A stretch of 36,575 bases of DNA, from the IMG/VR virus record IMGVR_UViG_3300037193_000260, positions 1-36,575 of that record, one strand, 5' to 3'. Below, in pieces: positions 13,158 to 28,463 of the stretch. Each line of letters opens with the position of its first letter. The first letter of the stretch is position 1. The notes beneath the pieces were generated by a model. It worked only from the letters and a program-made list of their open reading frames with translations, was not told the origin of the DNA and searched no databases. The position numbers and the translations under genes are program-made. The stretch comes from a virus.

Positions 13158-13538
13158 ATGATCGACAAAACCCCACCACCTGACCTTCCTGCACACCTGG
13201 CCGAGTTGTTGCCCTGGGCCTGGGTCGCCTTCGTTTCCATTCTCGGAGGCGTGGCGTCCTTCCTGCAGAAGATGAAAACCGGCCACGTCCGCGCCTGGAA
13301 CTTCACCGAGTTTGTCGGCGAAATGGCCGCCGCCGGCCTGACCGGCATCATTACCGCGAACCTGTGCGATTCCATGGGCTCGTCGGCGCCACTGAAGTAC
13401 GCCCTGGTCGGCATTTCGTCACACATGGGTTCACGCGCGCTGTTCAAGCTCGAGGCCATGTTCACCGCGAAATTCCACCTGCCGGCCGATCCGGTGGTGC
13501 CGGCTGACCAATCGAAGGGGGAAGATCATGCCGCCTAG
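13158..13538 (+). CDS. Holin, LydA-like
   Basis: 126 residues with three hydrophobic stretches: 18-36 (LPWAWVAFVSILGGVASFL), 52-72 (FVGEMAAAGLTGIITANL) and a weaker 78-96 (PLKYALVGISSHMGSRAL), and a hydrophilic C-terminus. Size, topology and the conserved W...F.GE...A...G.I pattern fit the LydA/Phage_holin_3 type. It overlaps the endolysin gene by 11 bases. Holins form inner-membrane lesions that release the endolysin at a programmed time. The ribosome-binding site is weak (GAAAGAAAAAA), which could keep synthesis low. Confidence 0.8.
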   Translation: MIDKTPPPDLPAHLAELLPWAWVAFVSILGGVASFLQKMKTGHVRAWNFTEFVGEMAAAGLTGIITANLCDSMGSSAPLKYALVGISSHMGSRALFKLEAMFTAKFHLPADPVVPADQSKGEDHAA

Positions 13539-14007
13539 CGCCTTCCTTGCCATGATGGTCGGGCCGGCGCAGGCCTGCCAGCGCGCGACCGGGATCCCCG
13601 CTTCGCTGATCCTGGCGCAGGCGGCGCTGGAATCCGGATGGGGCGCACGCTGCCCTGGTAACAACCTGTTTGGCATCAAGGCGGATAAGGCATGGAAGGG
13701 CCCGACCGTCGACGTCGCGACGCACGAAGTCATCAAGGGCAAGCGCATCGCGATCACCGACAAGTTCCGAGCCTATGCCAGCTGGGCCGACTGCATGAAG
13801 GATCACGCCCGGTTCTTCCAGGTGAACCCGCGGTACCGCGACTGTTTCAAGGAAACGACCGGCGAAGGCTGGGCGCGCGCGGTGGCCAAGGCCGGCTATG
13901 CGACCGATCCGAACTACGCCAGCCTGCTGATCGCCGTAATGGGTAACAAGCCCGGCGGCCGGAATATGGCGCAGTACGACGTGCAGCCTGCACAGGTGCC
14001 AGCGTGA
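13528..14007 (+). CDS. Endolysin, FlgJ-type glucosaminidase/muramidase
   Basis: 159 residues. The glucosaminidase-domain (PF01832) pattern is clear: GIPASLILAQAALESGWGAR with catalytic Glu E35, then PGNNLFGIKADKAWKG, a strand pair (THEVIKGKRIAITDKFRAYASW), DCMKDHARFF and AVAKAGYATDPNYASLLIAVM. No signal peptide or SAR segment is visible, so it relies on the upstream holin. It cleaves the glycan strand of peptidoglycan. It overlaps the holin at its start and the Rz gene at its end (4 bases), forming a compact lysis cassette. Confidence 0.9.
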   Translation: MPPSAFLAMMVGPAQACQRATGIPASLILAQAALESGWGARCPGNNLFGIKADKAWKGPTVDVATHEVIKGKRIAITDKFRAYASWADCMKDHARFFQVNPRYRDCFKETTGEGWARAVAKAGYATDPNYASLLIAVMGNKPGGRNMAQYDVQPAQVPA

Positions 14008-14534
14008 CCGCGATCGAGCGGCTGACGGCCGCCGTCATGCTGGTGCTGCTGGTCGCAGTCGGCAGCGTCTTGTGGGTCCGCCACTATGGCGCCGAGCAGT
14101 ACCAGGCCGGCCACGATGCGGCGATCGCCGCCGGCAAAGAGCAATACGACCGCGATGCCGCGGCCGCCCGTAAAACCGAGTCGGACCTGCGCGCGCAGCT
14201 GCGCGCCAAGGATGCCGACGCCCTACGACAGAAAGAGGAACATGAAAAAAACCTTGCGAATGCTCAGCGCCGCATGCGCGCTGGCGCTGACAGCCTGCGC
14301 TGCCCCGCAGTCGGCCCCGTACCAGACCACGCCGCGCCCGACGATCGACCCGCTGCCGGCGGACCTGACCCTGACACCGCAGGACCGCGCATTGTGCCAG
14401 AGACTGCTGCTGATCTTCTCGGCGTCGCCGCGGACATTGCTGGAATCGTGCGGAAGTACGACCGCCTCGAGCAGCGCTTCGAAGCCTGCCGGGCCCTGAA
14501 CGCGGAATGGGCGGCGGCATGGACTTCCATGTGA
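14004..14534 (+). CDS. Rz-like inner-membrane spanin
   Basis: 176 residues. An N-terminal membrane anchor (about residues 7-25, TAAVMLVLLVAVGSVLWV) is followed by a long charged helical periplasmic region (AAARKTESDLRAQLRAKDADAL) and a C-terminal region ending EQRFEACRALNAEWAAAWTSM, typical of Rz i-spanins. The Rz1 lipoprotein gene is wholly nested in the +1 frame. The pair disrupts the outer membrane at the end of lysis. Confidence 0.85.
   Translation: MTAIERLTAAVMLVLLVAVGSVLWVRHYGAEQYQAGHDAAIAAGKEQYDRDAAAARKTESDLRAQLRAKDADALRQKEEHEKNLANAQRRMRAGADSLRCPAVGPVPDHAAPDDRPAAGGPDPDTAGPRIVPETAADLLGVAADIAGIVRKYDRLEQRFEACRALNAEWAAAWTSM
14242..14499 (+). CDS. Rz1-like outer-membrane lipoprotein spanin (nested in Rz)
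   Basis: 85 residues encoded completely inside Rz, one frame over. It begins MKKTLRMLSAACALALTACAAP: positive N-terminus, hydrophobic core and lipobox LTAC with lipidated Cys C19. It is then Pro-rich (APYQTTPRPTIDPLPADL), as in known Rz1 proteins. AGAGGAA lies 2 bases before the ATG region and gives a plausible ribosome-binding site. A longer in-frame extension upstream lacks a signal sequence and is rejected. Partner of the Rz protein in outer-membrane disruption. Confidence 0.85.
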   Translation: MKKTLRMLSAACALALTACAAPQSAPYQTTPRPTIDPLPADLTLTPQDRALCQRLLLIFSASPRTLLESCGSTTASSSASKPAGP

Positions 14535-14883: not shown

Positions 14884-15426
14884 TCAGCCTTCTGCAATCT
14901 GCCAGTCTTCGGCCAGGGCGTCCGACTGTGACGGTGCCCAGCCCATCAGGATCGCGCCCTGTGCGGTCTTCAGAATGAAATAAGGCAGCACCGGCGCGCC
15001 GCCGCCGTTCTCTTCGGCATGCGCGCGGGCGTGCTCGTTCCAGAACGACGTGGCGGCCAGGTTCGGGTTCCCCTTGCCCAGCGCGACCCACTGGCCGGCA
15101 CCATTCCAGCCTGCGCGCGTGACCTTGTGCCCGCGCTTCATCGCTTCGACCGCCAGGCCGAAGTTCATGGCATCGCACGGACGATAGGCAGCGTCGAACG
15201 CGCGCTTCGGCGTCCAGGTGACATAGCCGGCGCGCCCCGGTACATTCGGCTTGCCGTCCGCTTCGTACTCAACCAGATAGCCCGCCTCGGCGCCGTCTTC
15301 GTCGGGCGGCATCGCCCAACCGCGGAAGGCATTGTAGGCGGCCCGGGTCATCGCCTCGGCGATGATCAACTTGGTACCGATGAATCGGCCGGCGGTCTGG
15401 ATCGTGGTGCTGGTGGTTTCTTGCAT
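14884..15426 (-). CDS. Two-domain protein with C-terminal Tad2 (DUF2829)-like domain
   Basis: 180 residues, strong GAAGGAAG site before ATG. Residues about 14-84 (FIGTKLIIAEAMTRAAYNAFRGW to GYVTWTPKRAFDAAYRP) form a small domain common in phage early proteins and of unknown function. Residues 86-178 (MNFGLAVEAMKRGHKVTRAGW, then WAPSQSDALAEDW) match the DUF2829 pattern: an opening F..A...MK.G..V.R..W and the closing W.PS..D.LA.DW. The founding member of this domain, Tad2, blocks Thoeris defence by sequestering the cyclic ADP-ribose signal. Family placement rests on these motifs; an anti-Thoeris role is inferred. Location near the end of the early leftward unit, a typical accessory position, is consistent with counter-defence. 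Confidence 0.75.
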   Translation of the reverse strand: MQETTSTTIQTAGRFIGTKLIIAEAMTRAAYNAFRGWAMPPDEDGAEAGYLVEYEADGKPNVPGRAGYVTWTPKRAFDAAYRPCDAMNFGLAVEAMKRGHKVTRAGWNGAGQWVALGKGNPNLAATSFWNEHARAHAEENGGGAPVLPYFILKTAQGAILMGWAPSQSDALAEDWQIAEG

Positions 15427-15442
15427 GGTCTTCCTTCAGGGT

Positions 15443-15474: not shown

Positions 15475-15642
15475 TTATTTGGTGGTGCCGACCTGGCGCC
15501 GATCCTTGCCGCTGCGCCGGTCGCCGGCCAGCCAGCCGAACAGGCGCCAGAACAGCGTGGGTCCGAAGCGTCGATCGGTGCGGTTCGGGCACTTGCGGCC
15601 CTGGTCGCAGTTCTGGGTACAGCATTGGCCGCGCGTCTTCAT
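15475..15642 (-). CDS. Small Cys-rich basic protein
   Basis: 55 residues from the ATG that overlaps the previous stop (ATGA at 15639-15642). The N-terminus MKTRGQCCTQNCDQGRKCP has four Cys in 13 residues, suitable for binding a metal ion, followed by a hydrophobic/aromatic patch (FGPTLFWRLFGWLAG) and a basic tail. Possibly a small zinc-binding or membrane-associated protein. No family recognised. Translation coupling to the 96-residue gene upstream suggests they act together. Confidence 0.6.
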   Translation of the reverse strand: MKTRGQCCTQNCDQGRKCPNRTDRRFGPTLFWRLFGWLAGDRRSGKDRRQVGTTK

Positions 15643-15929
15643 ACCGGGCATTCCATCCAGTCGCACGGCCCGGCCGGGTCACCAGGATGCCGGCTGCAAT
15701 GCGCGCAGCTGTCGGGCGCCGGCAGCGCCTGCGCGTCGTTCACTTCGCGCGCCTCGACGTCGATTACCATGCCGTGCTGTTCCTCATATAGGCGGTGCTG
15801 GCGGTCAGATTCTTCCTGATGTTCGCGTGCCTGACGTTCGGCCTGGCGCTGGGCTTCCTCGGCCTGCAGCCGGGCTTCGGTCCTGGCCAGTTCCAGCGCT
15901 GCTAGGCCTGCGAAGTACCCGCCCATCAT
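15639..15929 (-). CDS. Coiled-coil protein with C-terminal Cys cluster
   Basis: 96 residues, ATG overlapping the preceding stop (ATGA). Residues about 1-45 begin with a short hydrophobic stretch (MMGGYFAGLAALELA) followed by a strongly charged coiled coil (RTEARLQAEEAQRQAERQAR). The C-terminus has CAHC, then 10 residues, C and four residues later C (ending DWMECPV), a possible metal site. No family recognised. It lies in a coupled set of unknown genes in the leftward unit. Confidence 0.6.
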   Translation of the reverse strand: MMGGYFAGLAALELARTEARLQAEEAQRQAERQAREHQEESDRQHRLYEEQHGMVIDVEAREVNDAQALPAPDSCAHCSRHPGDPAGPCDWMECPV

Positions 15930-17161
15930 TCCGGCTTTCCCCCATCATCGGCACCCCGGGCCGGCACCGCGTATTCCGGCCACAAGGCATCCCGCACCAT
16001 CGGCGGCGGGATGAAGGCGACAGTCTCGGCGGCCGCGCGGTTCTGGGCCTTCTGGATATCCGACAACCCAGCGAAGAGGGCCGCGCCGTCCAGGTTCTTC
16101 AGGATGCCCAGGCGCGCGTCCTGAAGAGTCACCGTGTCACCGAACACGCGCACGGTCGCCACCGGCAAATGGTCGACGGCTTGCCGCCCGCCTGTCAGCT
16201 TTTCCCATTCCGCCATGATCGCCTGCGCGGCATCGCGCGGCGTGACGTCATCGCCGAAGGTCAGCACGCCTTCATTGCTGATCGAAAGCCAGATTTTCGG
16301 CGTGGTGTCGACATGTCGAATGCGGTAATGCAGGGTATCTGATTGCTCATCGGGCGCGGCTTCCTGGTGGCTTTGTACGCCGCTCGGCTGCTGCGCCTGG
16401 TTAGCGGCATCGGGTGCAGTCCCGTCTGATTCCAGAAATTCCTGCAGCGCATCCTTGCCGCAGTTGCAGCGGTTCCCCGGGTCGCCTTCGTGATGGTCGG
16501 ACACGAAGCAATTTTCACCATGCGGGCCGGTGCTGATCCAGTTTCTGGCGGCGGTCAGCTTGCCGATTATTTCGGTAATCTCGCTTTGCAGGTCGGCAGC
16601 GTCGCCAGTTGCGGCGAGGTCTTCAGCCCACTCGCGATCCTTCAGCAGGCGCACCATGCGGCGCACCTGTTCGCGGAACTTGTGCAGCTGGTCATACTGG
16701 CTATACAAGGCGGCCACGTCGCGCAGCGGCTGGGTGTCATAGGCCGGGTTGATGCTGTCGCCCAGCTTCCAGTAGCCGATCGCGGCGGTACTGATCGCGG
16801 CCATTTGCAGGCGGTATTGTTCGCTGCGCTCGAGCGCTGGCAGGGCGCCTTCCCGGTACAGGTATTCGCCGTCGCGCAGCGGCTCTTCGGACTGGTGGAA
16901 CGGATAGAACTGGTGCCAGGTGGCCGCGCCTTCGCCGCCGGTGCGGTACACGGCCGCCGGCCCATCCTTGCGACGCACGCACACGTCGACGCGCTCGAGG
17001 TCGGGCGGCTGGTTCGGCCAGGTGCTGCCCAGCGGCCCGATCAGGCCAGTGGTCGGCCCGGTCAGCAGCAGGGTCCAGTGGTCAGGGCGATCGCCCCACT
17101 GCAGCGCGACGGCAGGCCGGGCGTCATCCTTGCGGCGCATCGGGTTTGTGGTGTCATTCAC
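15926..17161 (-). CDS. Unknown phage protein with Cys/His motif
   Basis: 411 residues from GTG 17161, chosen because it overlaps the previous stop as GTGA and has AAAGGAG upstream. The alternative is ATG 17140 (MRRKDDARPAVALQWG). The N-terminal 100 residues contain DHWTLLLTGPTTGLIGPLG and a WHQFYPFHQS segment. A middle helical region (QYDQLHKFREQVRRMVRLLKD) precedes GENCFVSDHHEGDPGNRCNC, which could bind a metal; similar GE.CFVSDH..GDPG..C.CG motifs occur in other phage proteins of unknown role. The C-terminal domain has a beta-rich part (ATVRVFGDTVTL). No function assigned. Confidence 0.7.
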   Translation of the reverse strand: MNDTTNPMRRKDDARPAVALQWGDRPDHWTLLLTGPTTGLIGPLGSTWPNQPPDLERVDVCVRRKDGPAAVYRTGGEGAATWHQFYPFHQSEEPLRDGEYLYREGALPALERSEQYRLQMAAISTAAIGYWKLGDSINPAYDTQPLRDVAALYSQYDQLHKFREQVRRMVRLLKDREWAEDLAATGDAADLQSEITEIIGKLTAARNWISTGPHGENCFVSDHHEGDPGNRCNCGKDALQEFLESDGTAPDAANQAQQPSGVQSHQEAAPDEQSDTLHYRIRHVDTTPKIWLSISNEGVLTFGDDVTPRDAAQAIMAEWEKLTGGRQAVDHLPVATVRVFGDTVTLQDARLGILKNLDGAALFAGLSDIQKAQNRAAAETVAFIPPPMVRDALWPEYAVPARGADDGGKPE

Positions 17162-17421
17162 TTTGCAATTCTCCTTTGTTTGAGGGCTGATTCGGCTGCA
17201 TCCCATGCAAGTCGCACGCGCTCGTCCAGGGTTGTTATCGGCTTTTCGCCGCGGGTCCATCCTTTGGCGTCGATACAGGCCGACAGCGCCGCCATGAAGG
17301 CCCGGTCCAGAAAGGCCTGGCGCTCGGCTTGATATCGCTCGGTTTGTCGGTCGCGCTGCACGCGCTTGCGGCCTGCTGCATACCCGCGCGCGTATCCCCG
17401 TTGTTCTTCTGTGGTCGGCAT
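17158..17421 (-). CDS. Small basic helical protein of unknown function
   Basis: 87 residues, GGGGAT ribosome-binding site. The N-terminus MPTTEEQRGYARGYAAGRKR followed by charged helices (QTERYQAERQAFLDRAFMAAL) is a common pattern in phage early proteins; a KGWTRGEKPITTLDERVRLAW segment follows. Coupled to the next gene by GTGA overlap. Function unknown. Confidence 0.65.
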   Translation of the reverse strand: MPTTEEQRGYARGYAAGRKRVQRDRQTERYQAERQAFLDRAFMAALSACIDAKGWTRGEKPITTLDERVRLAWDAAESALKQRRIAK

Positions 17422-17437
17422 TCTGATCCCCTATGTA

Positions 17438-17462
17438 GCGCGCCAGCGCTGGGCCGGCGCGC
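17438..17462 (-). repeat. Intercistronic GC hairpin, copy C
   Basis: GCGCGCC / GGCGCGC 7-bp stem, 11-base loop that is itself GC-rich, in the 57-base gap between the exonuclease and the 87-residue gene. Confidence 0.75.
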
Positions 17463-17478
17463 GTGGATTATGGCCGAG

Positions 17479-18132
17479 TTACGCGGCGGCCTGCGCCTGG
17501 TGCGCCTTGATGCCGTAATAGACCGCCTTGGCCGCGCGCACGTCGTTCATTGCGTCGTGCGCGCCTTCCAGATCGTGCCCGGTGAAGAACTTGTAGGCTT
17601 CGCCCAGATTCGGCGACTTCGGGCCCTTGCGGCGCGCGGCCACCATCTTCGCGGTCGGCGGCAGGTTCAGGATTTTCACGCTGTTGCCCTGGGTGCAGTA
17701 GGCCGGCGCCGCCTTCCAGTAATCGGCGAACGGCAGCGGCGGCGTGCCGATGGTCTGCATGCTGTAGAAGGCGTGTCGCATCAGTTCGATGCGCAGCATG
17801 CGCATGTCGAAGGATTCGTTGTGGCCGCAGCGAAGATTAGCCTCGGTCCACATGTCGACAAAGTGGGAAATTACCACGTCGGCGGCGATGCCTTCGGCCA
17901 TGGCGCGCTCGGTGGTGATGCCGTGCACGGCGGCCACTTCGTCCGGAACGGTCCAGCCGTCGGGCAGCACAATCATGTTCATGTGCTGCAGGTCTTCGCC
18001 GGTGGCTTCGTCGCACAGCAGGGCGGCCAGCTGCAGCACGCGCGGCTGTTCTGGGTGCTCGCTGGGCAGGCTCCAGAGAGGCAGGCCAGTCGTTTCGGTG
18101 TCGTAGAACAGAATGGTTTTTTGGGTATTCAT
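17479..18132 (-). CDS. DnaQ-like 3'-5' exonuclease (DEDDh family)
   Basis: 217 residues. All exonuclease motifs are present: ExoI FYDTETTGLP (D11, E13), ExoII GHNESFDMRML (D109), and ExoIII AHDAMNDVRAA with His H192 and D197, which marks the DEDDh subgroup shared by the DNA polymerase III epsilon subunit and RNase T. It would remove nucleotides from 3' ends using two metal ions. Position after the SMC-like ATPase and RecT suggests DNA end processing in recombination or degradation of host nucleic acid, but substrate cannot be told from sequence. A family hairpin lies on each side. Confidence 0.9.
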   Translation of the reverse strand: MNTQKTILFYDTETTGLPLWSLPSEHPEQPRVLQLAALLCDEATGEDLQHMNMIVLPDGWTVPDEVAAVHGITTERAMAEGIAADVVISHFVDMWTEANLRCGHNESFDMRMLRIELMRHAFYSMQTIGTPPLPFADYWKAAPAYCTQGNSVKILNLPPTAKMVAARRKGPKSPNLGEAYKFFTGHDLEGAHDAMNDVRAAKAVYYGIKAHQAQAAA

Positions 18133-18161
18133 GGTGTCGCTTTCGTAGTAGAGGAATGAAA

Positions 18162-18180
18162 GGGCGCCAGGCCGGCGCCC
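18162..18180 (-). repeat. Intercistronic GC hairpin, copy D
   Basis: GGGCGCC / GGCGCCC 7-bp stem, 5-base loop, in the 55-base gap between the SMC-like ATPase and the exonuclease. Arms differ from copies A-C by one compensated base pair (GC to CG changes on both arms), so the stem is kept while the sequence varies. Confidence 0.75.
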
Positions 18181-18187
18181 GGGTTAC

Positions 18188-19990
18188 TTAGGCGGCCTGC
18201 TGCGCCGCGCCGTCGGCGGTGGTGCTGGCGGTGATCCCGCCGTTTTCGACCCAGAACGCCGTGATGGTGTCGGCCAGGCCGGTCGGCATCGCCTTGAAGG
18301 TGCCGAACAGCAGGGCGGTGTCGATCAGGCCTTCGAAGGCCAGCACGTCCATCCAGTCCAGCAGCTGCGCGCGGCCCGGCAGGTCCAGCACGTCCACGCG
18401 GTCCAGCATCAGCACCTTCAGGCCGGAAATCTCGGCGACCACCTGGGCCACCATCGCGTCGACGCGCCATTGCTCGGACTCGCTCAGCAGCTGGTACGGG
18501 CGGCCGTTGGCGGTGATGGCCATGTCGGCTTCAATCTGGGCGGTCATCCATTCGGTATCCACGGCGGCCTGTTTCAGCAGCAGGTTCACCGGCGCAAGCG
18601 CCTCGAGCAGCATTTCGTTCGGGATGCCTTGCGGCGCCAGGGCGTCGGCCACCTTCGTCCATTCCTCGACATCGGCGTGGTGCCGGGCCGCGCCCTTGGT
18701 CTTCGCGTGCGCTTCGTCGCGTTTCTTCTGGGCCGCTTCAATGTCCAGGCGCTTGTTCTCGGCGGCCTGGCGGTCGGCTTTTGCCCTGGTCAGCAGGCCT
18801 TCTACTTCAGCGATTTCGGCGCTGGCGTCCACGACGTCGGAAGCGGGCGCCAGGGCGTCGAACTGGCCCTTGGCCTGGGTGGCGGCAGCAAGGCCACGTT
18901 CCAGGTTCTTCACGCGGTTCTGCATCACCTGCAGGCCGCGCTCATGTTCGGGCAGCGCGGTGACGGCATCAGGATCCGGCTGTCCGTCTTCCAGCTTGCC
19001 GTGTTCCTTCGTGTAGGCCACCATCAGCTTCGTCCGCTGGGTTTCCTTCTCGGCCGTCGCATCCTTCCCGGTCAGTACCAGCCCATCCAGGAAGCGGGCC
19101 ATGTCGTGCACCAGGCCGACGCGCGCGGTGCCGCTGGCGCGCTCGCGCATGGCCACCACCTTCGGCTCATACTCGGCCAGTTCCTTCCGCGCCAGGTCCA
19201 GCTGGCCGGTCAGGCTGTCGACCTTGCCGGCGCCTTCGGCCAGGGCTTCGCGGCGCTGCGCCGCCTTCTGCGCCTCGAGGGCCACCGACTTGATGCGGCC
19301 CAGATTTTCGTTCAGCAGCGCGATGTTTCGATCGATCCCGCCCACCTGGTCGGCCAGCGCCTTCACGTCGCCCGGCGGCAGGTCCGGCACCGGCGCTTCC
19401 CAGCTGACCGCCTTGACGGCGCCGTAGGTTTCGCCGGTCAGGGTGCGCCATGCGCCCTTCGCTTCGGTCGCCTTGCTCTTGGCGTGGTCGCACACGCCCG
19501 GGAAGCCGGTACGCAGCAGCGGCAGCACGGCGTCTACCTTCTCTTCCTGGCACCCGCGCGCCAGCATGCGCGCCTTCACGTTGTCCGCCTTCGGCTTCAG
19601 GCCGGTCAGGCCGAACAGGAAGGTGCGGCGCTCGTCGGGCGTCATCCTGGCGAAGCGCTGACCGTACAGGGCCACGCGCATCGGTTCGCTGATTTCCGGC
19701 CCGACGAATTCGCCCTTGGGCAGGTTGAACGCGAACGACTGATCAGCATCGCCGTCGATCGTCACCACGGCGCCGCCGGCCTGCGCGCCTTCGTGGACCA
19801 GCATGCCGAAGGTCTTTTTCGTGGTCACGTCGCGCACGGTGTCCTGGGTGATCGCCATGCGCACCGCTTCCTGAATCGAGCTCTTGCCGCTGCCATTGCG
19901 GCCGGCGAACAGCGCCACAGGCGTCGGCAGGCGTGCGTCGACGTCCTGCAGGCCCAGCACGTTCTGCGCTTGAATACGGGTGATTTTCAT
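18188..19990 (-). CDS. SMC/Rad50-like AAA ATPase
   Basis: 600 residues from ATG 19990 (GGAGAAC upstream); a 33-residue upstream extension overlaps the gap and is rejected. The N-terminus MKITRIQAQNVLGLQD and Walker A GRNGSGKSS (residues 30-38) are followed by a long charged coiled-coil middle (about 220-440). Near the C-terminus come a signature-like LLSESEQWRVDAMV and Walker B VLMLDRVDVLDLPGR. The Walker B position after the Asp is Arg, not the usual Glu. Such proteins in phages accompany nucleases and annealing proteins and probably handle DNA ends like Rad50/SbcC. Placement between the exonuclease and RecT modules supports recombination or repair. Confidence 0.85.
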   Translation of the reverse strand: MKITRIQAQNVLGLQDVDARLPTPVALFAGRNGSGKSSIQEAVRMAITQDTVRDVTTKKTFGMLVHEGAQAGGAVVTIDGDADQSFAFNLPKGEFVGPEISEPMRVALYGQRFARMTPDERRTFLFGLTGLKPKADNVKARMLARGCQEEKVDAVLPLLRTGFPGVCDHAKSKATEAKGAWRTLTGETYGAVKAVSWEAPVPDLPPGDVKALADQVGGIDRNIALLNENLGRIKSVALEAQKAAQRREALAEGAGKVDSLTGQLDLARKELAEYEPKVVAMRERASGTARVGLVHDMARFLDGLVLTGKDATAEKETQRTKLMVAYTKEHGKLEDGQPDPDAVTALPEHERGLQVMQNRVKNLERGLAAATQAKGQFDALAPASDVVDASAEIAEVEGLLTRAKADRQAAENKRLDIEAAQKKRDEAHAKTKGAARHHADVEEWTKVADALAPQGIPNEMLLEALAPVNLLLKQAAVDTEWMTAQIEADMAITANGRPYQLLSESEQWRVDAMVAQVVAEISGLKVLMLDRVDVLDLPGRAQLLDWMDVLAFEGLIDTALLFGTFKAMPTGLADTITAFWVENGGITASTTADGAAQQAA

Positions 19991-20051
19991 TGTCTTGTTC
20001 TCCAATCTGTTGAGGGTGCAGGACCGCGCCGGGCGGCCCCGCGTGTTGTTG

Positions 20052-20909
20052 TTATTCCAGGTTGCCGCCGTTGGCTGCGCGCTTGCCACCGCGGCGGCGG
20101 CCGGCGATCGGTTCGACGTTGCTGCCGATCGGCGCCTCGTCGGTCTTCAACGGGATAGGGTCGCCAGCCGGTTCTGCCGGGCCTTCGCCGGGCCGGAACT
20201 CGGCGTCCACCACGTCGTCGGGCTGGGCGGTGTAGCTGTGGCCCGGGTCGCCCGGCTGCACGCCGTCGTTCGCCAGCACGACTTCGCCGCCAGTGGCCGG
20301 CAGGGCGTCGACCTTCGCGCCCGGCGTGTCGAACATCGCCTCGGCTTTCTGGCGCGCTTCGCTCTTCGGCTGCTGGGTCTGCTGCTGCACCTGGTCGAAC
20401 AGGTCGCCGCTGCCTTCGGCTTCGTCTTCGTCGCGGCACTCAAGCGTGACCGGAACCACCTGCTGCAGCAGGGCCGACAGCGCAGCGATCGCGGCCGGGT
20501 CGGGCTTGGAGAACTGAACGCGGAACTGCCAGTGGACGGTGCCGCCTTCCTTCATCGTCAGCTTGAAATTATTGGTTTTGCCGCCGCCCAGCACGACGTC
20601 GCCGCCGTCGACGTGCAAGCGCAGCAGGGTGCGCGGCACTTCCAGCTTCCAGCCGATCGTCGGATCCAGCAGCGGGAAGCGCAGGGCCGGCAGGTGGTCC
20701 GATTCGATCAGTTCGCGGTTGTCGTCCTTGCGGTAATACGTGGCGCGCAGGTCTGGGTGCAGCTTGGCCAGCAGGTTGTTCGCGGCGTCGAATTCGAACT
20801 TCAGGTCGATCGCCGGGCTGGATTCTTCGCCGTGCAATTCGCTACGCACGTTCAGGTGCGCCAGCTTGCAGCGCTCTTTTTGCAGATTGAATGCCTCAGT
20901 TTTGGACAT
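20052..20909 (-). CDS. Unknown protein of the recombination cluster
   Basis: 285 residues, AAGGG site before ATG. The N-terminal 160 residues (NLQKERCKLAHLNVRSELHGEE, PAIDLKFEFDAANNLLAKL, KTNNFKLTMKEGGTVHWQFRVQ) look like a beta-rich domain; this opening pattern recurs in phages next to RecT-type genes. The rest is a low-complexity, acidic and Pro/Gly-rich tail ending in a basic patch (GRRRGGKRAANGG). A single-strand DNA-binding or RecT-assisting role would fit the neighbours and tail but no motif proves it. Confidence 0.65.
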   Translation of the reverse strand: MSKTEAFNLQKERCKLAHLNVRSELHGEESSPAIDLKFEFDAANNLLAKLHPDLRATYYRKDDNRELIESDHLPALRFPLLDPTIGWKLEVPRTLLRLHVDGGDVVLGGGKTNNFKLTMKEGGTVHWQFRVQFSKPDPAAIAALSALLQQVVPVTLECRDEDEAEGSGDLFDQVQQQTQQPKSEARQKAEAMFDTPGAKVDALPATGGEVVLANDGVQPGDPGHSYTAQPDDVVDAEFRPGEGPAEPAGDPIPLKTDEAPIGSNVEPIAGRRRGGKRAANGGNLE

Positions 20910-20944
20910 CAGTGTTTTCCCTTCTGGGTGGTGGTGAAAAATCG

Positions 20945-22186
20945 TTATTCCGGCGCGGTGCCGCTGCTGGGGCGGCGGGTGCGCTTCGCAGGGCCGGCGG
21001 CCGGTGCTTCAGCCTTCTGTTCCTGGGTCTTGGGCGACATTTCGGCCAGGCGCTGCTGGTACAGCGTGTTCAGGGTGGCGCGGAAGCTGTCGTTGGTCAC
21101 TTCGCCGACCAGTTCGTACACGTCGGCCAGCTGGTTCAGGTTGTTCGCGCGGTTCAGCTGGGCCATAAGGCGCTCGTACTGTTCGCCTTCCTCGGCCGTG
21201 AACGTGCCCGCCTTCGTGCCCGGCTGCGACGTACTGGTGCCGGTGCTGGTGGCGCTGGCCGCCGCCGGCTGTGCTTCGCGCACGTCGACGGTCTCGGCAG
21301 CTGCTGCGCGGCGCTGGTTCGCGCTCGGCTGTTCCTCGGTGGTCGCCGGCTGCTGGGCCGGTGCATCGGTGCGCGGGTGCTCTTCCTGCTGGTCGGTGGC
21401 CGCGTCTTCCTCATCGATGAACACGAAGTTGCCGTCGATCGTGTTTTCAACGTGGACCGCCTTGCCGGCCGCATTCGCCTGTTCGGCGGCGATCGCGTTT
21501 TCCAGTTCCACCGACGTCGGCAGGTATTTGATCACCTGCAGCAGCACGACCTTCCGGCCGTAGGCTTCGAAGTTGTCGTCGTTCTTCGCGGCGTAGTGCT
21601 TGCCGCCGACCTTGTTGTATTCCTTCAGGTGCTTGTGCACCTTCGCGGTCGACCACACGACCAGGTGCGGGAACTCGGCGCCCTTCACGCGGCCGACCGC
21701 GTAGTAGTGGGTAACGTCTTCGTGCGCTTCGCTGTCGCCCGGCTTGTGGTGCAGGTACGGGCTGTCGCCCAGCTGGTAGTCGAACTGGTCGCCCTTGCGC
21801 ACCACGCCGGTCCAGGCGCTGGCGCGGCCGGTGCGGTTCACCAGGTCGATCAGGCCCTTCCAGCCCGGGACATACTGGCAATTGCCCTTGTACGCGACCA
21901 GATAGCCCTTGCCGTTCCCCAGCCCGATCCCGCTGTTGATCGCGACGCTGACCGCCACGTAGAACGACAGCGGCGTGGCCGCCTGCAGGTCTTTCGACTG
22001 CATCAGCATGACGGTCGCGGTGCGGATTTCGCGCTCCACCGTCATGTGGCCCGGTATGCCGGCGCCCAGCAGTTCCTTGCGCTTATCCAGATAGTCGGTC
22101 TTCCCGGTGATCGGGTGCGCGGCCCGCTTGGCGAGCTCGGTAGTGTTCGCCTGCTGGTTTTCCTGCAGGTTTTGCAGTGTTGTCAT
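20945..22186 (-). CDS. RecT-family single-strand annealing protein
   Basis: 413 residues from ATG 22186 with AAAGGAG upstream. The RecT core spans about residues 20-260: TPLSFYVAVSVAINSGIGLGNG, KGYLVAYKGNCQYVPGWKGL, a conserved DVTHYYAVGRVKG and FEAYGRKVVLLQVIKYLP. The C-terminal 150 residues are a disordered, Gln/Ala/Thr-rich extension ending in a basic tail. RecT proteins anneal complementary single strands; together with the adjacent Fe-S nuclease they form the phage's recombination pair. The upstream frame is open but lacks a better start. Confidence 0.9.
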   Translation of the reverse strand: MTTLQNLQENQQANTTELAKRAAHPITGKTDYLDKRKELLGAGIPGHMTVEREIRTATVMLMQSKDLQAATPLSFYVAVSVAINSGIGLGNGKGYLVAYKGNCQYVPGWKGLIDLVNRTGRASAWTGVVRKGDQFDYQLGDSPYLHHKPGDSEAHEDVTHYYAVGRVKGAEFPHLVVWSTAKVHKHLKEYNKVGGKHYAAKNDDNFEAYGRKVVLLQVIKYLPTSVELENAIAAEQANAAGKAVHVENTIDGNFVFIDEEDAATDQQEEHPRTDAPAQQPATTEEQPSANQRRAAAAETVDVREAQPAAASATSTGTSTSQPGTKAGTFTAEEGEQYERLMAQLNRANNLNQLADVYELVGEVTNDSFRATLNTLYQQRLAEMSPKTQEQKAEAPAAGPAKRTRRPSSGTAPE

Positions 22187-22215
22187 GCGGTGGTTCTCCT
22201 TTGAGTGGTGATGGT

Positions 22216-23019
22216 TCATTCGTGGTACGGGCAGGCATCCCAGCGCACACAAAACCGCTTGCTGCACAAGGTCGACTGTGGGTTCGGCGGGAACAGCCCC
22301 GCCTTGAACATCTTGGCGGCCATTTCGATCAGGCCCGGGTGCTGGGGCGTACCGACCAGGTGGCGCTTCGCGTCGAACACTTGGCTGATCCCGACCTGTG
22401 TGGTGCTGGTGGTCTGCAGGGCCATAATCTGGCCGCCGGCCGTCGGCTGACCGTCGGTATGCTCGGACAGCAGCTGATAGGTGCCCAGCTGCGCGGCGCG
22501 GCCCTTGGTGCTGACAACGCCTTCGCTGATCAGGCGCCCGCCGGTCTTCAGGTCGGCGATCACCTTGCCGGCGCTGCTGCGCGCGACCCGGGCCCGGTCC
22601 ATAGTGCCGGTCAGGCGCACGGTCACGCCCTGGCCGCAGTCGATTTCCATGGGCTTCAGGGTCATTTCGACCGATTCGAAGCGCATCAGCGGTGCAATCT
22701 CGGCGCAGTAGCGGGCGTGCAGGGTCAGCCCGATCCGCTCGGCGTCGCGCAGGGGCAGCTTCGGGTCTTTGAAGTCGACGTCTTCCCCCGGTTCATACAG
22801 GGTCTGCACGAACACGTCGGCCGCATCGTTGGCGCTGATCGGCGCACCGGCCAGCTGCGCCTGGTCGAAGGCCGCGGTGCTGGCGTGGATGCTGGTGCCG
22901 AGCCAGGCGCGCAGGCTGGTCGGGCGGTGCATGCGCATCAGCTGTTCGCCTTCGAAGCGGTAGGCGCAGTCGAACAGGCCGCCGAAGGAACTGGCGCGGA
23001 TGGTGTAGGTTTCGTTCAT
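22216..23019 (-). CDS. PD-(D/E)XK nuclease, Cas4/RecB-like with Fe-S cluster ligands
   Basis: 267 residues, start overlapping the previous stop (TAATG). Nuclease motifs: H45 in GTSIHAST, D141 in TGTMDRA, and D156-L-K158 in VIADLKTG. Four Cys in Cas4/AddB arrangement: C18 (FDCAYRF) near the N-terminus and C252, C257, C263 near the C-terminus (LCSKRFCVRWDACPYHE), expected to hold a 4Fe-4S cluster. It probably resects DNA to give the single strands used by the RecT protein encoded next. Absence of a separate lambda-type exonuclease supports this pairing. Confidence 0.88.
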   Translation of the reverse strand: MNETYTIRASSFGGLFDCAYRFEGEQLMRMHRPTSLRAWLGTSIHASTAAFDQAQLAGAPISANDAADVFVQTLYEPGEDVDFKDPKLPLRDAERIGLTLHARYCAEIAPLMRFESVEMTLKPMEIDCGQGVTVRLTGTMDRARVARSSAGKVIADLKTGGRLISEGVVSTKGRAAQLGTYQLLSEHTDGQPTAGGQIMALQTTSTTQVGISQVFDAKRHLVGTPQHPGLIEMAAKMFKAGLFPPNPQSTLCSKRFCVRWDACPYHE

Positions 23020-24187: not shown

Positions 24188-24714
24188 TGGAAATCGTTCT
24201 GGTCAAGCAGACCGACGCCCAGCTGTCCGAAGAGGACCGCGCCGTGGTGCGTCGCTTCCTGATGGGCCACCTGTCGGGCGCCACCGACAAGGACACGAAG
24301 GCCTGGAACAACTTTATCCGCGCCATGGATGCCGCCGGCAGCGGCGAGTTCTTCACCTTCAAGATCGAGCGCCGCCGCCAGGGCTGGTATCACAGGAAGC
24401 ACATGGCCACGATTTCGGCCGTGTTCAAGGCACAGGAGCGCATCAGCGACTTCGAAGCCTTCCGCCTGTGGCTGAAGATCGGCAGCGGCTTTGTCACCTG
24501 GATGACCGGGCCGAAGGGCGGCGTGGTGCCCGTGCCGAAGTCGATCAGCTACAGCAGCTGCAGCGAAGAGGAAATGCGCGAGTTCCACGAAAACGCGATC
24601 GCCTTCCTGCTGACGGAACACGCCTGCACCTACCTGTGGCCGAAGGTTGACCCGCACACCGCCCAGCAGGGCATGGACGCAATACTAAGAAAATTCGAAG
24701 GGGACCAACCTTGA
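24187..24714 (+). CDS. DUF1367-family phage protein
   Basis: 175 residues, start overlapping the previous stop (TAATG). The MEIVLVKQTDAQLSEEDR opening and the central WYHRKHMATISAVFKAQERI followed by SISYSSCSEEEMREFHENAI fit the phage DUF1367 pattern (xxxHRKxxALxxxxF; then a conserved SISFxxxxxxEFxxxY-like block). The function of this family is not established; members sit among lambdoid early or nin-type genes, as here. Confidence 0.75.
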   Translation: MEIVLVKQTDAQLSEEDRAVVRRFLMGHLSGATDKDTKAWNNFIRAMDAAGSGEFFTFKIERRRQGWYHRKHMATISAVFKAQERISDFEAFRLWLKIGSGFVTWMTGPKGGVVPVPKSISYSSCSEEEMREFHENAIAFLLTEHACTYLWPKVDPHTAQQGMDAILRKFEGDQP

Positions 24715-26576
24715 AACGAGACATTTTCAGCCTGCAGCTGGACCTGGGGCACGAACTCATTATCGACAACTTCGCCGGCGGCGGCGGCACCAGTACGGGA
24801 CTCGAGGCAGCATTCGGGCGCCCGGTGGATATCGCGATTAACCACGATCCCGAAGCGCTGGCCATGCACGCCATGAACCACCCGCACACCCGGCACCTGT
24901 GCGAATCGGTATGGGACGTCGACCCCATCAAGGTCACGAACAACCAGCCGGTCGCGCTGGTCTGGCTGTCACCCGACTGCAAGCACTTCAGCAAGGCGAA
25001 AGGCGGGAAGCCGGTGGAAAAGCGGATCCGCGGCCTGGCCTGGGTCACGCTGCGCTGGGCAGCGAAGTGCAAACCGCGCGTGATCATGCTGGAAAACGTC
25101 GAAGAGTTCAAAACCTGGGGGCCGCTGATCCAGGATGAACACGGCAATTGGAAGCCCGACCCGGCGAAGCGTGGCAAGACCTTCGCCAGCTTCGTCCGCC
25201 AGCTGGAAGCCCACGGCTACAAGGTCGAACACCGGGAACTGCGCGCGAGCGACCACGACACCCCGACGATCCGCAAGCGGTTCTTCCTGGTCGCCCGCCG
25301 CGATGGTCTGCCCATCTGCTGGCCCGAGCCCACCCGCGGCGCGCCAGACTTGCCGGCCGTGCTGGCTGGCCAACTGCTGCCGCACCGCACCGCGGCCGAG
25401 TGTATCGACTGGTCCCTGCCCTGCCCATCCATTTTCGACCGGAAGCGCCCGCTGGCCGAGGCCACCATGCGCCGGATCGCGAAGGGCATCATGCGCTATG
25501 TAGTCGACGCCGAGCAGCCCTTCATTGTGCCGCTGACGCACCAGGGCAGCGATCGCGTCGAGCCGATCACGGAACCCATGCGCACCATTACCAGCGCGCA
25601 CCGCGGCGAACGGGCACTGGTGACCGCTTTCCTGAACGAACACGCGAACGCCAGCACGCAGCGCGTCATGCCTGCCGATGAACCGATGCGCACCATTTGC
25701 GGAGAAGTGAAGGGCGGCCACTTCGGGCTGGTCTCGGCCACGCTGGTCGACACCGCACACGGCGACGTGTCGCCCGGTGGCGTGAAGCGCTGGGGCAGCG
25801 GCGCCAAGCCGGTCGACGCACCGATCGGCACCGTGGCCGCCAGTAGCAATCAGGCGCTTGGCGTCGCCTTCCTAGCCAAGCATTACACCGGCGTGGTCGG
25901 GTCCGACCTGGAAGAGCCGATCGGCACCGTGACCAGCTGCGACCACCATAGCCTGGTGCATGCGCACTTGACGAAATTCCGCACCGGGTCGACCGGCAGC
26001 GACCTGTCCGCCCCGGTGCCGACGATCACGGCCGGCCCGAAGGAAAACCCAGCCGGCGCCCCGCATGCGCTCGGCTTGGTGTCGTCCCACCTGATCAAGC
26101 TGCGCGGCACCAGCACCGCGGCCGCCATGCAGGAACCCATGCACACGATCAGCGCGCAGGGCCAGCACCACGGCGAGGTGCGCGCCTTCCTTATGAAGTA
26201 TTACAGCACCGACCAAGACCCGCGCCTGGGCGAACCGCTGCACACCATAACGACTGTCGACCGCTTCGGGCTGGTGACCATTCACGGCCAGGACTACGAG
26301 ATTGTCGACATTGGCCTGCGCATGCTGGCGCCGCATGAACTCTACCGGGCGCAGGGCTTCCCCGAGGATTACGTGATTGATGAAATCCCCGACCCGGCCC
26401 TGTTGTTCGTGAATGGCCACCAGGTCGACGGCGACCCGCGCCAGCTGCCGCGCGTGAAGTTGTCGAAGTCGTCGCAGGTGCGCATGTGCGGGAACAGTGT
26501 TTGCCCGCCGCTGGCCGAGGCGCTGATTCGTGCGAACTTTGCCCATGAACGCCTGATTGCCGGGATTGCAGCATGA
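24711..26576 (+). CDS. DNA cytosine-5 methyltransferase with repeat-built recognition region
   Basis: 621 residues from TTG 24711, which overlaps the preceding TGA; no later start keeps motif I. C5-MTase motifs: I NFAGGGGTSTGLE (20-32), IV WLSPDCKHFS with catalytic C90, VI MLENVEEF (126-133), VIII RKRFFLVARR (188-197), X MCGNSVCPPLAEALI (592-606). Motif IV reads PDC instead of the usual PC, a known variant subgroup. Between VIII and X lie seven tandem units marked by EP.xTIT-type cores at 288, 324, 370, 402, 434, 475 and 508 (period about 32-46). These replace a conventional target-recognition domain. The enzyme transfers methyl from S-adenosylmethionine to C5 of cytosine, probably protecting phage DNA from restriction. 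No cognate nuclease is present. Confidence 0.92.
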   Translation: MKRDIFSLQLDLGHELIIDNFAGGGGTSTGLEAAFGRPVDIAINHDPEALAMHAMNHPHTRHLCESVWDVDPIKVTNNQPVALVWLSPDCKHFSKAKGGKPVEKRIRGLAWVTLRWAAKCKPRVIMLENVEEFKTWGPLIQDEHGNWKPDPAKRGKTFASFVRQLEAHGYKVEHRELRASDHDTPTIRKRFFLVARRDGLPICWPEPTRGAPDLPAVLAGQLLPHRTAAECIDWSLPCPSIFDRKRPLAEATMRRIAKGIMRYVVDAEQPFIVPLTHQGSDRVEPITEPMRTITSAHRGERALVTAFLNEHANASTQRVMPADEPMRTICGEVKGGHFGLVSATLVDTAHGDVSPGGVKRWGSGAKPVDAPIGTVAASSNQALGVAFLAKHYTGVVGSDLEEPIGTVTSCDHHSLVHAHLTKFRTGSTGSDLSAPVPTITAGPKENPAGAPHALGLVSSHLIKLRGTSTAAAMQEPMHTISAQGQHHGEVRAFLMKYYSTDQDPRLGEPLHTITTVDRFGLVTIHGQDYEIVDIGLRMLAPHELYRAQGFPEDYVIDEIPDPALLFVNGHQVDGDPRQLPRVKLSKSSQVRMCGNSVCPPLAEALIRANFAHERLIAGIAA

Positions 26577-27016: not shown

Positions 27017-27501
27017 GCAATAAAAACGTGATCCTGGTGCTGCCGTACCCGGTGTCGGCAAACCGTTATTGGGCGACGCGCGTGGTCACGCCGAAGGGCG
27101 GCCGGGCCATGGCGATGACCTACGTTACCCCCGAGGCGAAGGAATACCAGAAGCAGGTGCTGGCCGCGGCGCGCGCGCTGGGCGTGGTGGCGCCGATCGT
27201 CGGCCGTGTGCAGATCGACATTCGCCTGTTCCCGCACCGCCCGCTAGACTGGCAGGCCCGCCAGCGCAAGCACGGCGCCGCATGGGCCGACACGGTGCAA
27301 TGCCTGGACCTGGACAACACGACGAAGGTGCTGCTGGATGCGCTGAAGGGCGTGGCCATGGAGGATGACAAGTGGGTGCGCCGCATCATCAGCGAACGCA
27401 TGGAACCCGACGAACACGGTGCCCGCGTGGTGGTGCGCGTGCTGGCGCTCGAGCTCGAGCAGCCGCAGCTGGGCCTGGCGATCGAGGACGCCGCCGCATG
27501 A
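27013..27501 (+). CDS. rusA: RusA-family Holliday junction resolvase
   Basis: 162 residues, ATG overlapping the previous stop. RusA features: LPYPVSANRYW at the start (8-18), a DxDN motif LDLDNTTK (D99, D101, K105) and MEDDKWV (D118, D119), the acidic and Lys residues that bind metal and cut four-way junctions. Resolves recombination intermediates generated by the RecT system and helps produce packaging substrates. The name rusA is used for the family; direct orthology with E. coli is assumed. Confidence 0.88.
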   Translation: MSNKNVILVLPYPVSANRYWATRVVTPKGGRAMAMTYVTPEAKEYQKQVLAAARALGVVAPIVGRVQIDIRLFPHRPLDWQARQRKHGAAWADTVQCLDLDNTTKVLLDALKGVAMEDDKWVRRIISERMEPDEHGARVVVRVLALELEQPQLGLAIEDAAA

Positions 27502-28463
27502 AGACCGTTACTATCGGCACCGCCACGCTGTACTGTGGCGACGCCCTGGAAATCCTGCCCACCCTGCCGAAGGTCGACGCCGTCATCACCGACCCGCCCT
27601 ACGGCGTGCTGGATGAAGAATGGGATGCCATGTCATTCCGCGAGCTCGCGCGCTTCACTATGGGCTGGGTCTCGCAAGTGCGCGCGAAGTCGGACGTGCT
27701 GGTGTCGTTCTTTGCCGTGAACACCCGCCAGGCGCTGGACCCGCTGCTGCAGCTGGTCTATGACGACGTGCGCCAGCTGGTATGGAACAAGGGAGGCGGC
27801 CGCGTGGCCGATGGCGGCCTGTTCTACGCCTTCGAACCGATCTACCTGTGCCAGCCGCGCACGACCTGGGAAGTCGTGGAACCGAAGACCCTGGAAGTCG
27901 CCCAGCTGATCACCGCCGCCCGCGAAAAGGCCGGGCTGTCGCGCGGCGCCGTCGACATGCAGGTGCGCGGCAAGAAAACCGGGCTGTGCTACCGCTGGGA
28001 AGAGGCGGCGTGCTTGCCGACACTCGAGCAGGCGCACGCGCTGCGCCGCATCCTGGGCCTGGGCGAGGAATTCGACCGCGTGTACAGCGCCGCCATGCTG
28101 GCGCGCGACCAGGTGATCAGCGCCGCCCGCGCCAAGACGTCGGAGAACGCCGCGCGCGCCCTGGACGTCTTCAGCTACCCGCCGACGCAGGGCGGCCCCG
28201 GCCGGCACCCGACCGAGAAGCCGGTGGCGCTGATGGGCGACCTGGTGCAGGTAGTCACCGACCCGGGCCAGGTGGTGCTGGACCCGTTCATGGGCAGCGG
28301 CACCACCGGCGTCGCAGCCGTCCAGCTGGGGCGCCCGTTCATCGGCATCGAGCGCGACCCGGGCCACTTCGAAACCGCGTGCAGGCGCCTCGAGCAGGCA
28401 GTCGCGCAGGGCCAGCTGTTCCGGCCCGAACCATCGAAACAAGTACAGGAATCACTGCTATGA
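27498..28463 (+). CDS. DNA adenine-N6 or cytosine-N4 methyltransferase (beta class) with internal HTH-like insert
   Basis: 321 residues, ATG overlapping the previous stop. Motif IV DPPYG (D32-Y35) precedes motif I DPFMGSGTTG (262-271), the order of beta-class amino-methyltransferases. HPTEKPVALM (237-246) is the expected motif X region. Residues about 132-190 (EVAQLITAAREKAGLSRGAV, then RWEEAACLPTLEQAHALRR) form an inserted helical segment resembling an XRE-type helix-turn-helix, placed where the target-recognition domain should be. DPPY is compatible with either N6-adenine or N4-cytosine methylation. No paired nuclease is seen. Probably protects phage DNA or times replication. Confidence 0.88.
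   Translation: MKTVTIGTATLYCGDALEILPTLPKVDAVITDPPYGVLDEEWDAMSFRELARFTMGWVSQVRAKSDVLVSFFAVNTRQALDPLLQLVYDDVRQLVWNKGGGRVADGGLFYAFEPIYLCQPRTTWEVVEPKTLEVAQLITAAREKAGLSRGAVDMQVRGKKTGLCYRWEEAACLPTLEQAHALRRILGLGEEFDRVYSAAMLARDQVISAARAKTSENAARALDVFSYPPTQGGPGRHPTEKPVALMGDLVQVVTDPGQVVLDPFMGSGTTGVAAVQLGRPFIGIERDPGHFETACRRLEQAVAQGQLFRPEPSKQVQESLL

Follow-up and report, generated by a model that had tools for sequence, protein, structure and literature searches.

A Tad2-family phage protein with an N-terminal module that recurs on other phage signal sponges

Introduction

Tad2, Acb4 and Tad1 are experimentally established families of phage sponge proteins, and all of them form oligomers, Tad2 and Acb4 being tetramers and Tad1 a hexamer (PMC12043709, PMC11722364). 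In Tad2 the cyclic-dinucleotide site has been located in the insert region of the domain (PMC12043709), and the solved AcrIIA7/HgmTad2 structure contains both 1',2'-cADPR and cGG. Acb4 (PF13876) is an anti-CBASS sponge family with 1,331 homologues, of which all eight that were tested bound 3'3'-cGAMP (PMC11722364). For AcrIIA7, a Tad2 relative filed as an anti-CRISPR protein, the reports on activity conflict (PMC13131331).

Here we analyse a small phage gene whose product was described in a first-pass annotation, made from the sequence, as a Tad2-like domain preceded by a separate small phage domain, and hence as a candidate anti-Thoeris protein. The gene lies in a stretch of 36,575 bases, referred to below as the window, which is the whole of an IMG/VR record.

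Results

The gene and its surroundings

The window belongs to a podovirus, in which PHROG scans identify a P22-like portal, a terminase, a major head protein and head-closure genes, followed by a rightward lysis cassette. The nearest named portal proteins are those of Rhodoferax phage P26218 and EBPR podovirus 1 (~50% identity). The fusion gene is the last member of a leftward operon that includes an exonuclease gene, and its 3' end faces that of the spanin gene (Table 1). The same gene order is found in the relatives L026, L027 and L033; L033 has SbcC-like, DnaQ-like and endolysin neighbours that are 82-86% identical to those of the window. Both halves of the fusion are under purifying selection (dN 0.08-0.20, dS 0.41-0.73, compared with the relatives L001-L003), which places the existence of this gene well beyond chance.

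Two further observations concern the surroundings. The 444-aa ORF of the operon is partly conserved in the three syntenic relatives. The two DNA-methyltransferase-like genes lie between a NinB-like gene and a replication gene resembling O, and they possibly serve in protection from restriction.

Table 1. Features of the window discussed in the text.
Feature	Position	Strand	Evidence
Two-domain protein gene (180 aa, P0001)	14884..15426	-	ORF from ATG; phrog_872 full length; dN<dS in both halves
Ribosome-binding site AAGGAAG (rated good), directly ahead of ATG	15430..15436 (+ strand numbering)	-	sequence inspection
N-domain, residues ~14-85	15172..15387	-	alignments, AF2, architecture survey, PHROGs 872, 9467, 32732
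Tad2-like domain, residues 87-177	14896..15168	-	PF11195, PDB sequence matches, fold match
Tad2 insert after GWNGAGQ, residues 114-147, medium-long, predicted helix	14986..15087	-	AF2 secondary structure
Lysis genes (holin, endolysin, Rz-like spanin), convergent with the fusion gene	13158..14534	+	PHROG scan
Leftward operon: small ORFs, 444-aa ORF, DnaQ-like exonuclease, SbcC-like, RecT	15475..22267	-	PHROG scan
444-aa ORF of this operon	15926..17260	-	no PHROG match
DNA-methyltransferase-like gene	24711..26576	+	phrog_116
DNA-methyltransferase-like gene	27372..28463	+	phrog_67

Assignment of the C-terminal half to Tad2

The Tad2-type opening and closing motifs that had been noticed in the C-terminal half are present as quoted, and the assignment of this half to Tad2 is borne out by Pfam, by PDB sequence matches and by the predicted monomer fold. 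Hereby, the Pfam model PF11195 (Tad2-like) matches residues 87-177 with 80.8 bits (cut-off 25, E=1.1e-22), and the best sequence matches in the PDB are SptTad2 (8wjd, E=1.2e-13), ModTad2 (9eib), HgmTad2 (8kbi), SPO1 Tad2 (8sme) and AcrIIA7 (9kzr); NCBIfam gives no match for the protein. The full chain was modelled with AlphaFold2 (AF2) as a single chain together with 74 homologues, all of them IMG/VR rows, which yields a pLDDT of 91.3 and a pTM of 0.68, the arrangement of the two domains being uncertain. A comparison with solved Tad2 structures had been proposed as a check, and at the level of the single-chain fold the model matches them, with VIA Z scores of 12.6 for SptTad2-cGG (8wjd), 11.3 for apo-AcrIIA7/HgmTad2 (8kbi) and 11.1 for ModTad2-hisADPR (9eib). 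Ten Tad2 entries lie at Z 10-12.6 and the next, unrelated row at 4.7; Foldseek likewise matches the Tad2 fold, with E 1.9e-8.

At the residue level, 22 of the 30 columns that are invariant in SptTad2, ModTad2 and HgmTad2 are kept, including R104, G106-W107-N108-G109, W163, S166, D169, D174 and W175. The eight differences cluster in the loop following GWNG, which reads GAGQW here and GKGMF in the solved Tad2 proteins, and in the insert. Since this loop is altered, the ligand may differ from those of the solved proteins. The spacing from GWNG to W163 amounts to 53 residues, as compared to 45 in ModTad2, 57 in SptTad2 and 63 in HgmTad2; with the dinucleotide site of Tad2 located in the insert region, NAD-derived and dinucleotide ligands are thus both candidates. 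Based on the Tad2 sequence and the predicted fold, "candidate anti-Thoeris protein" is a fair description as far as candidacy goes. As Tad2 relatives bind cyclic dinucleotides and one of them is filed as an anti-CRISPR protein, Thoeris is just one possible target.

An ordinary and widespread architecture

The impression that Tad2 proteins are mostly single-domain, and the fusion therefore unusual, had to be given up for phages at large. The whole two-domain chain corresponds to one PHROG, phrog_872 (residues 4-179 against positions 5-172 of the 172-position model, E=6.6e-55). A tblastn search returned 378 phage records, 89 of which cover at least 80% of the query and include gp49 of Escherichia phage N4, and at least 557 relatives were matched in IMG/VR. 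The fusion also occurs in prophages of several phyla: among 80 loci fetched from GTDB (Pseudomonadota, Bacillota, Bacteroidota, Spirochaetota and others), 72 encode the N-domain and Tad2 in one chain.

The N-domain

The separate domain ahead of Tad2 had been put at about 80 residues; the region comprises ~85 residues and does form a domain of its own. Modelled alone, it reaches a pLDDT of 94.4 and a pTM of 0.80 with a predicted beta-alpha-beta-beta-alpha order, and it shows neither a Pfam match nor a convincing PDB match by sequence or fold. A diverged second Tad2 domain, suggested by the look-alike motifs WSPxxxFxxAY and WxxSxxDxxAxDW, was considered and rejected, as the N-domain model matches Tad2 unconvincingly (8wje_D, with an E-value of 5.4 and a probability of 0.06). 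Sequence matches to cofilin and IFT122 (E>0.09) are at the level of chance, and a chromodomain-like fold (Z<=2.8) is too weak to be retained.

The N-domain is more conserved than the Tad2 half (mean entropy 1.23 versus 1.83 bits), with invariant or near-invariant polar and aromatic positions at K19, Y31, E43, RGW, GYLVEY and SWSP. L033, which is syntenic, has an N-domain close to that of the window (pN 0.17) together with a distant allele of the Tad2 half (pN 0.34). As the N-domain changes little compared with the variable Tad2 half, it probably serves something invariant, and its lower entropy suggests that its binding partner, whatever that is, is alike in most hosts.

A module found on other sponges

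The architectures in which the N-domain occurs were surveyed in single open frames with HMMs built in this analysis. Apart from N+Tad2 we find N+Acb4, Acb4+N, N+PF21825, N+Tad1, N+Tad2+PF21825, N+Tad2+Acb4 and N+PF21825+Acb4; Acb4+Tad2 and PF21825+Tad2 also exist as single frames that lack the N-domain. Representative cases of these architectures were confirmed with Pfam. N+Acb4 is represented by the relatives L107, L113 and L209 among others (Pfam/HMM), and N+Tad1 by L265:2965-3582 and L269:2965-3582, the former matching the solved Tad1 8kbb with E=6.1e-17. Three-domain chains are N+Tad2+PF21825 in L028:4995-5888 (73% identical to the window protein) and L342:2920-3720, and N+Tad2+Acb4 in L258:2995-3939; in Stenotrophomonas phage Philippe one protein consists of Acb4, the N-domain and PF21825. 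The same fusions appear independently in PHROGs 872 (N+Tad2), 9467 (N+Acb4) and 32732 (N+PF21825). To obtain a sample unbiased by partner, proteins were collected by motifs inside the N-domain only (59 after dereplication). Tad2 is present in 31/59, Acb4 in 13/59 (one with both) and Tad1 in 1/59, so that one or more of these three domains accompany the N-domain in 44/59 chains, or in 54/59 when PF21825 is counted.

In an N-domain tree of 119 rows and 75 columns the partners are interleaved, with 29 partner changes compared to the least possible 6; as so few columns leave most forks unresolved, we claim no count of fusion events from it. The differing domain orders alone require several such events. 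Together, the domain architectures suggest that the N-domain serves as a common building block in counter-defence by phages. Our literature search, with subscription papers mostly outside it, returned no paper describing the domain; we therefore regard as provisional the new element of this work, namely that the N-terminal half of the window protein is a module common to unrelated phage signal sponges.

Some related arrangements are recorded here as side observations. Tad2 is joined directly to Acb4 (L175:4746-5240) or to PF21825 (L023:1761-2270) in chains in which the N-domain is absent. A further small domain (HLPxHLQxVSKPxxELA...RKLLEAKDC) is joined to PF21825 and the N-domain in L003:510-1010, L038:5523-6029 and L023:2327-2749, corresponds in L023 to phrog_1761/5120, and may be another module of this set.

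Acb4 neighbours and PF21825

Acb4 also recurs as a neighbouring gene. In phage N4, gp48, which adjoins gp49, is a PF13876 protein. An Acb4 gene lies within 1.5 kb of 21 of 70 dereplicated fusion loci, as compared to 1 of 53 Tad2 loci lacking the N-domain (Fisher p=2.5e-5), a contrast that may partly reflect lineage because the two locus sets differ in phage type. The GTDB loci show a lower rate (8/72). In the window, translated in all six frames, an Acb4 model built here finds no hit (E<=10).

PF21825, a hairpin domain, resembles Acb2 by eye. Comparison by sequence gives an hhalign probability of 0.1 to T4 Acb2 (Vs.4) and no Acb2 chain among the PDB matches, so that the resemblance is not borne out at the sequence level. 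Beside the fusion in Pseudomonas phage Skulduggery, the gene SKUL_7 (L020:2693-2995) scores below threshold against PF24729, the Acb2/Tad1 hairpin family (24.9 bits, cut-off 27).

Discussion

We consider the protein to be a two-domain Tad2-family sponge for TIR-made and possibly CBASS-made signals that carries a sponge-associated accessory module, a reading to which we assign a probability of about 0.7. Given its Tad2 sequence and predicted fold, the C-terminal half would form a Tad2-type tetramer whose pockets, by analogy with the solved relatives, may trap TIR-made NAD-derived signals of the gcADPR or His-ADPR type; by the same analogy, the longer insert perhaps also traps cyclic dinucleotides. 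Trapping of the signal would keep Thoeris, or a CBASS system using such a signal, from switching on its effector. The N-domain is a conserved mobile module that occurs on no fewer than three sponge families with experimental backing (Tad2, Acb4 and Tad1); it can stand before or after Acb4, and the longest of its chains comprise three domains. It may itself bind a signal or metabolite, which would make the protein a composite sponge; this proposal is drawn from association, and we hold it tentatively, at slightly less than even odds. The association with Acb4 and Tad1 makes it plausible that the fusion links two counter-defence activities, as the first-pass annotation had surmised: the association stands, and the linking itself is a plausible reading of it.

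In the main alternative the N-domain binds no signal and serves assembly or stability, by determining the oligomer or by making the sponge pockets effectively more concentrated. All of its partner sponges work as oligomers, and its higher conservation would fit an invariant self-contact. However, the partners differ in symmetry and both Acb4-N and N-Acb4 exist, which sits uneasily with a single fixed assembly, and the many (near-)invariant polar and aromatic residues speak against such a role; we rate it at around one chance in four. A little less probable is a contact of the N-domain with a conserved protein of the host or the phage, which could, for example, bring the sponge to the enzyme making the signal or to some common partner. 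In this case one would expect the N-domain to be strongly conserved in hosts that are far apart and the Tad2 half to vary, as is observed, also in the pN values of L033; but a host target would itself need to be strongly conserved in phyla as different as Pseudomonadota, Bacillota, Spirochaetota and Bacteroidota.

Two further alternatives concern the Tad2 half. It might have lost its sponge function, the protein being structural or regulatory in the phage, as could be argued from the gene of phiAH14a, which sits among head genes, and from the eight altered core columns. Yet the position of the gene varies freely among phages (lysis, early and head regions) in the manner of an accessory gene, in the window it closes an early operon, and the GWNG and WxxSxxDxxAxDW core is retained, so that we regard this loss as improbable. 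Least probable, with only a slim chance, is that the half acts like AcrIIA7 on CRISPR-Cas9 rather than mainly on nucleotide signals. AcrIIA7 does have the Tad2 fold (9kzr, 8kbi), and relatives in phages Huey and Louie are annotated as "anti-CRISPR", but the conflicting activity reports (PMC13131331), the two nucleotides in the solved AcrIIA7/HgmTad2 structure and a genomic company made up of signal sponges all argue against it.

Hundreds of phages and prophages, the laboratory phage N4 included, carry this kind of two-domain protein, of which one half only has a known activity. The company of Tad2, Acb4 and Tad1 marks the N-domain as a counter-defence candidate, and the same argument extends to PF21825. 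The chains also show that sponge domains are lined up like beads, which could let a single phage protein block several signalling defences. A broader proposal, which we advance with more reserve than that of a composite sponge, is that the N-domain represents a hitherto undescribed module for signal binding or sponge assembly, which combines with Tad1, Tad2, Acb4 and PF21825 in many orders to give multi-specific counter-defence proteins with several pockets per chain; in that case PF21825 would be one more unrecognised counter-defence domain.

Compared to the described Tad2 proteins (SPO1, HgmTad2, SptTad2, ModTad2; PF11195), the window protein shares the sequence domain, the predicted fold, most of the conserved core residues and the character of a phage-borne accessory gene, but differs in its extra conserved N-domain, in GAGQW for GKGMF and in an insert of intermediate length. 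AcrIIA7 likewise has the Tad2 fold and falls into the same family in the PDB comparison, and differs in being named for anti-Cas9 activity. Acb4 (Phage_gp49_66) resembles the present case as a fusion partner of the N-domain in other phages and as a recurrent neighbour gene, whereas its ligand-binding fold is unrelated (dsRBD-like) and it is absent from the window. Tad1 is fused to the same N-domain in L265 and L269, but has another fold and does not occur in the window. The closest counterpart is phrog_872 with gp49 of phage N4, which has the same full-length two-domain chain and is catalogued in PHROGs without an assigned function; N4 gp49 differs from the window protein in its shorter Tad2 insert and in the Acb4 gene (gp48) directly before it.
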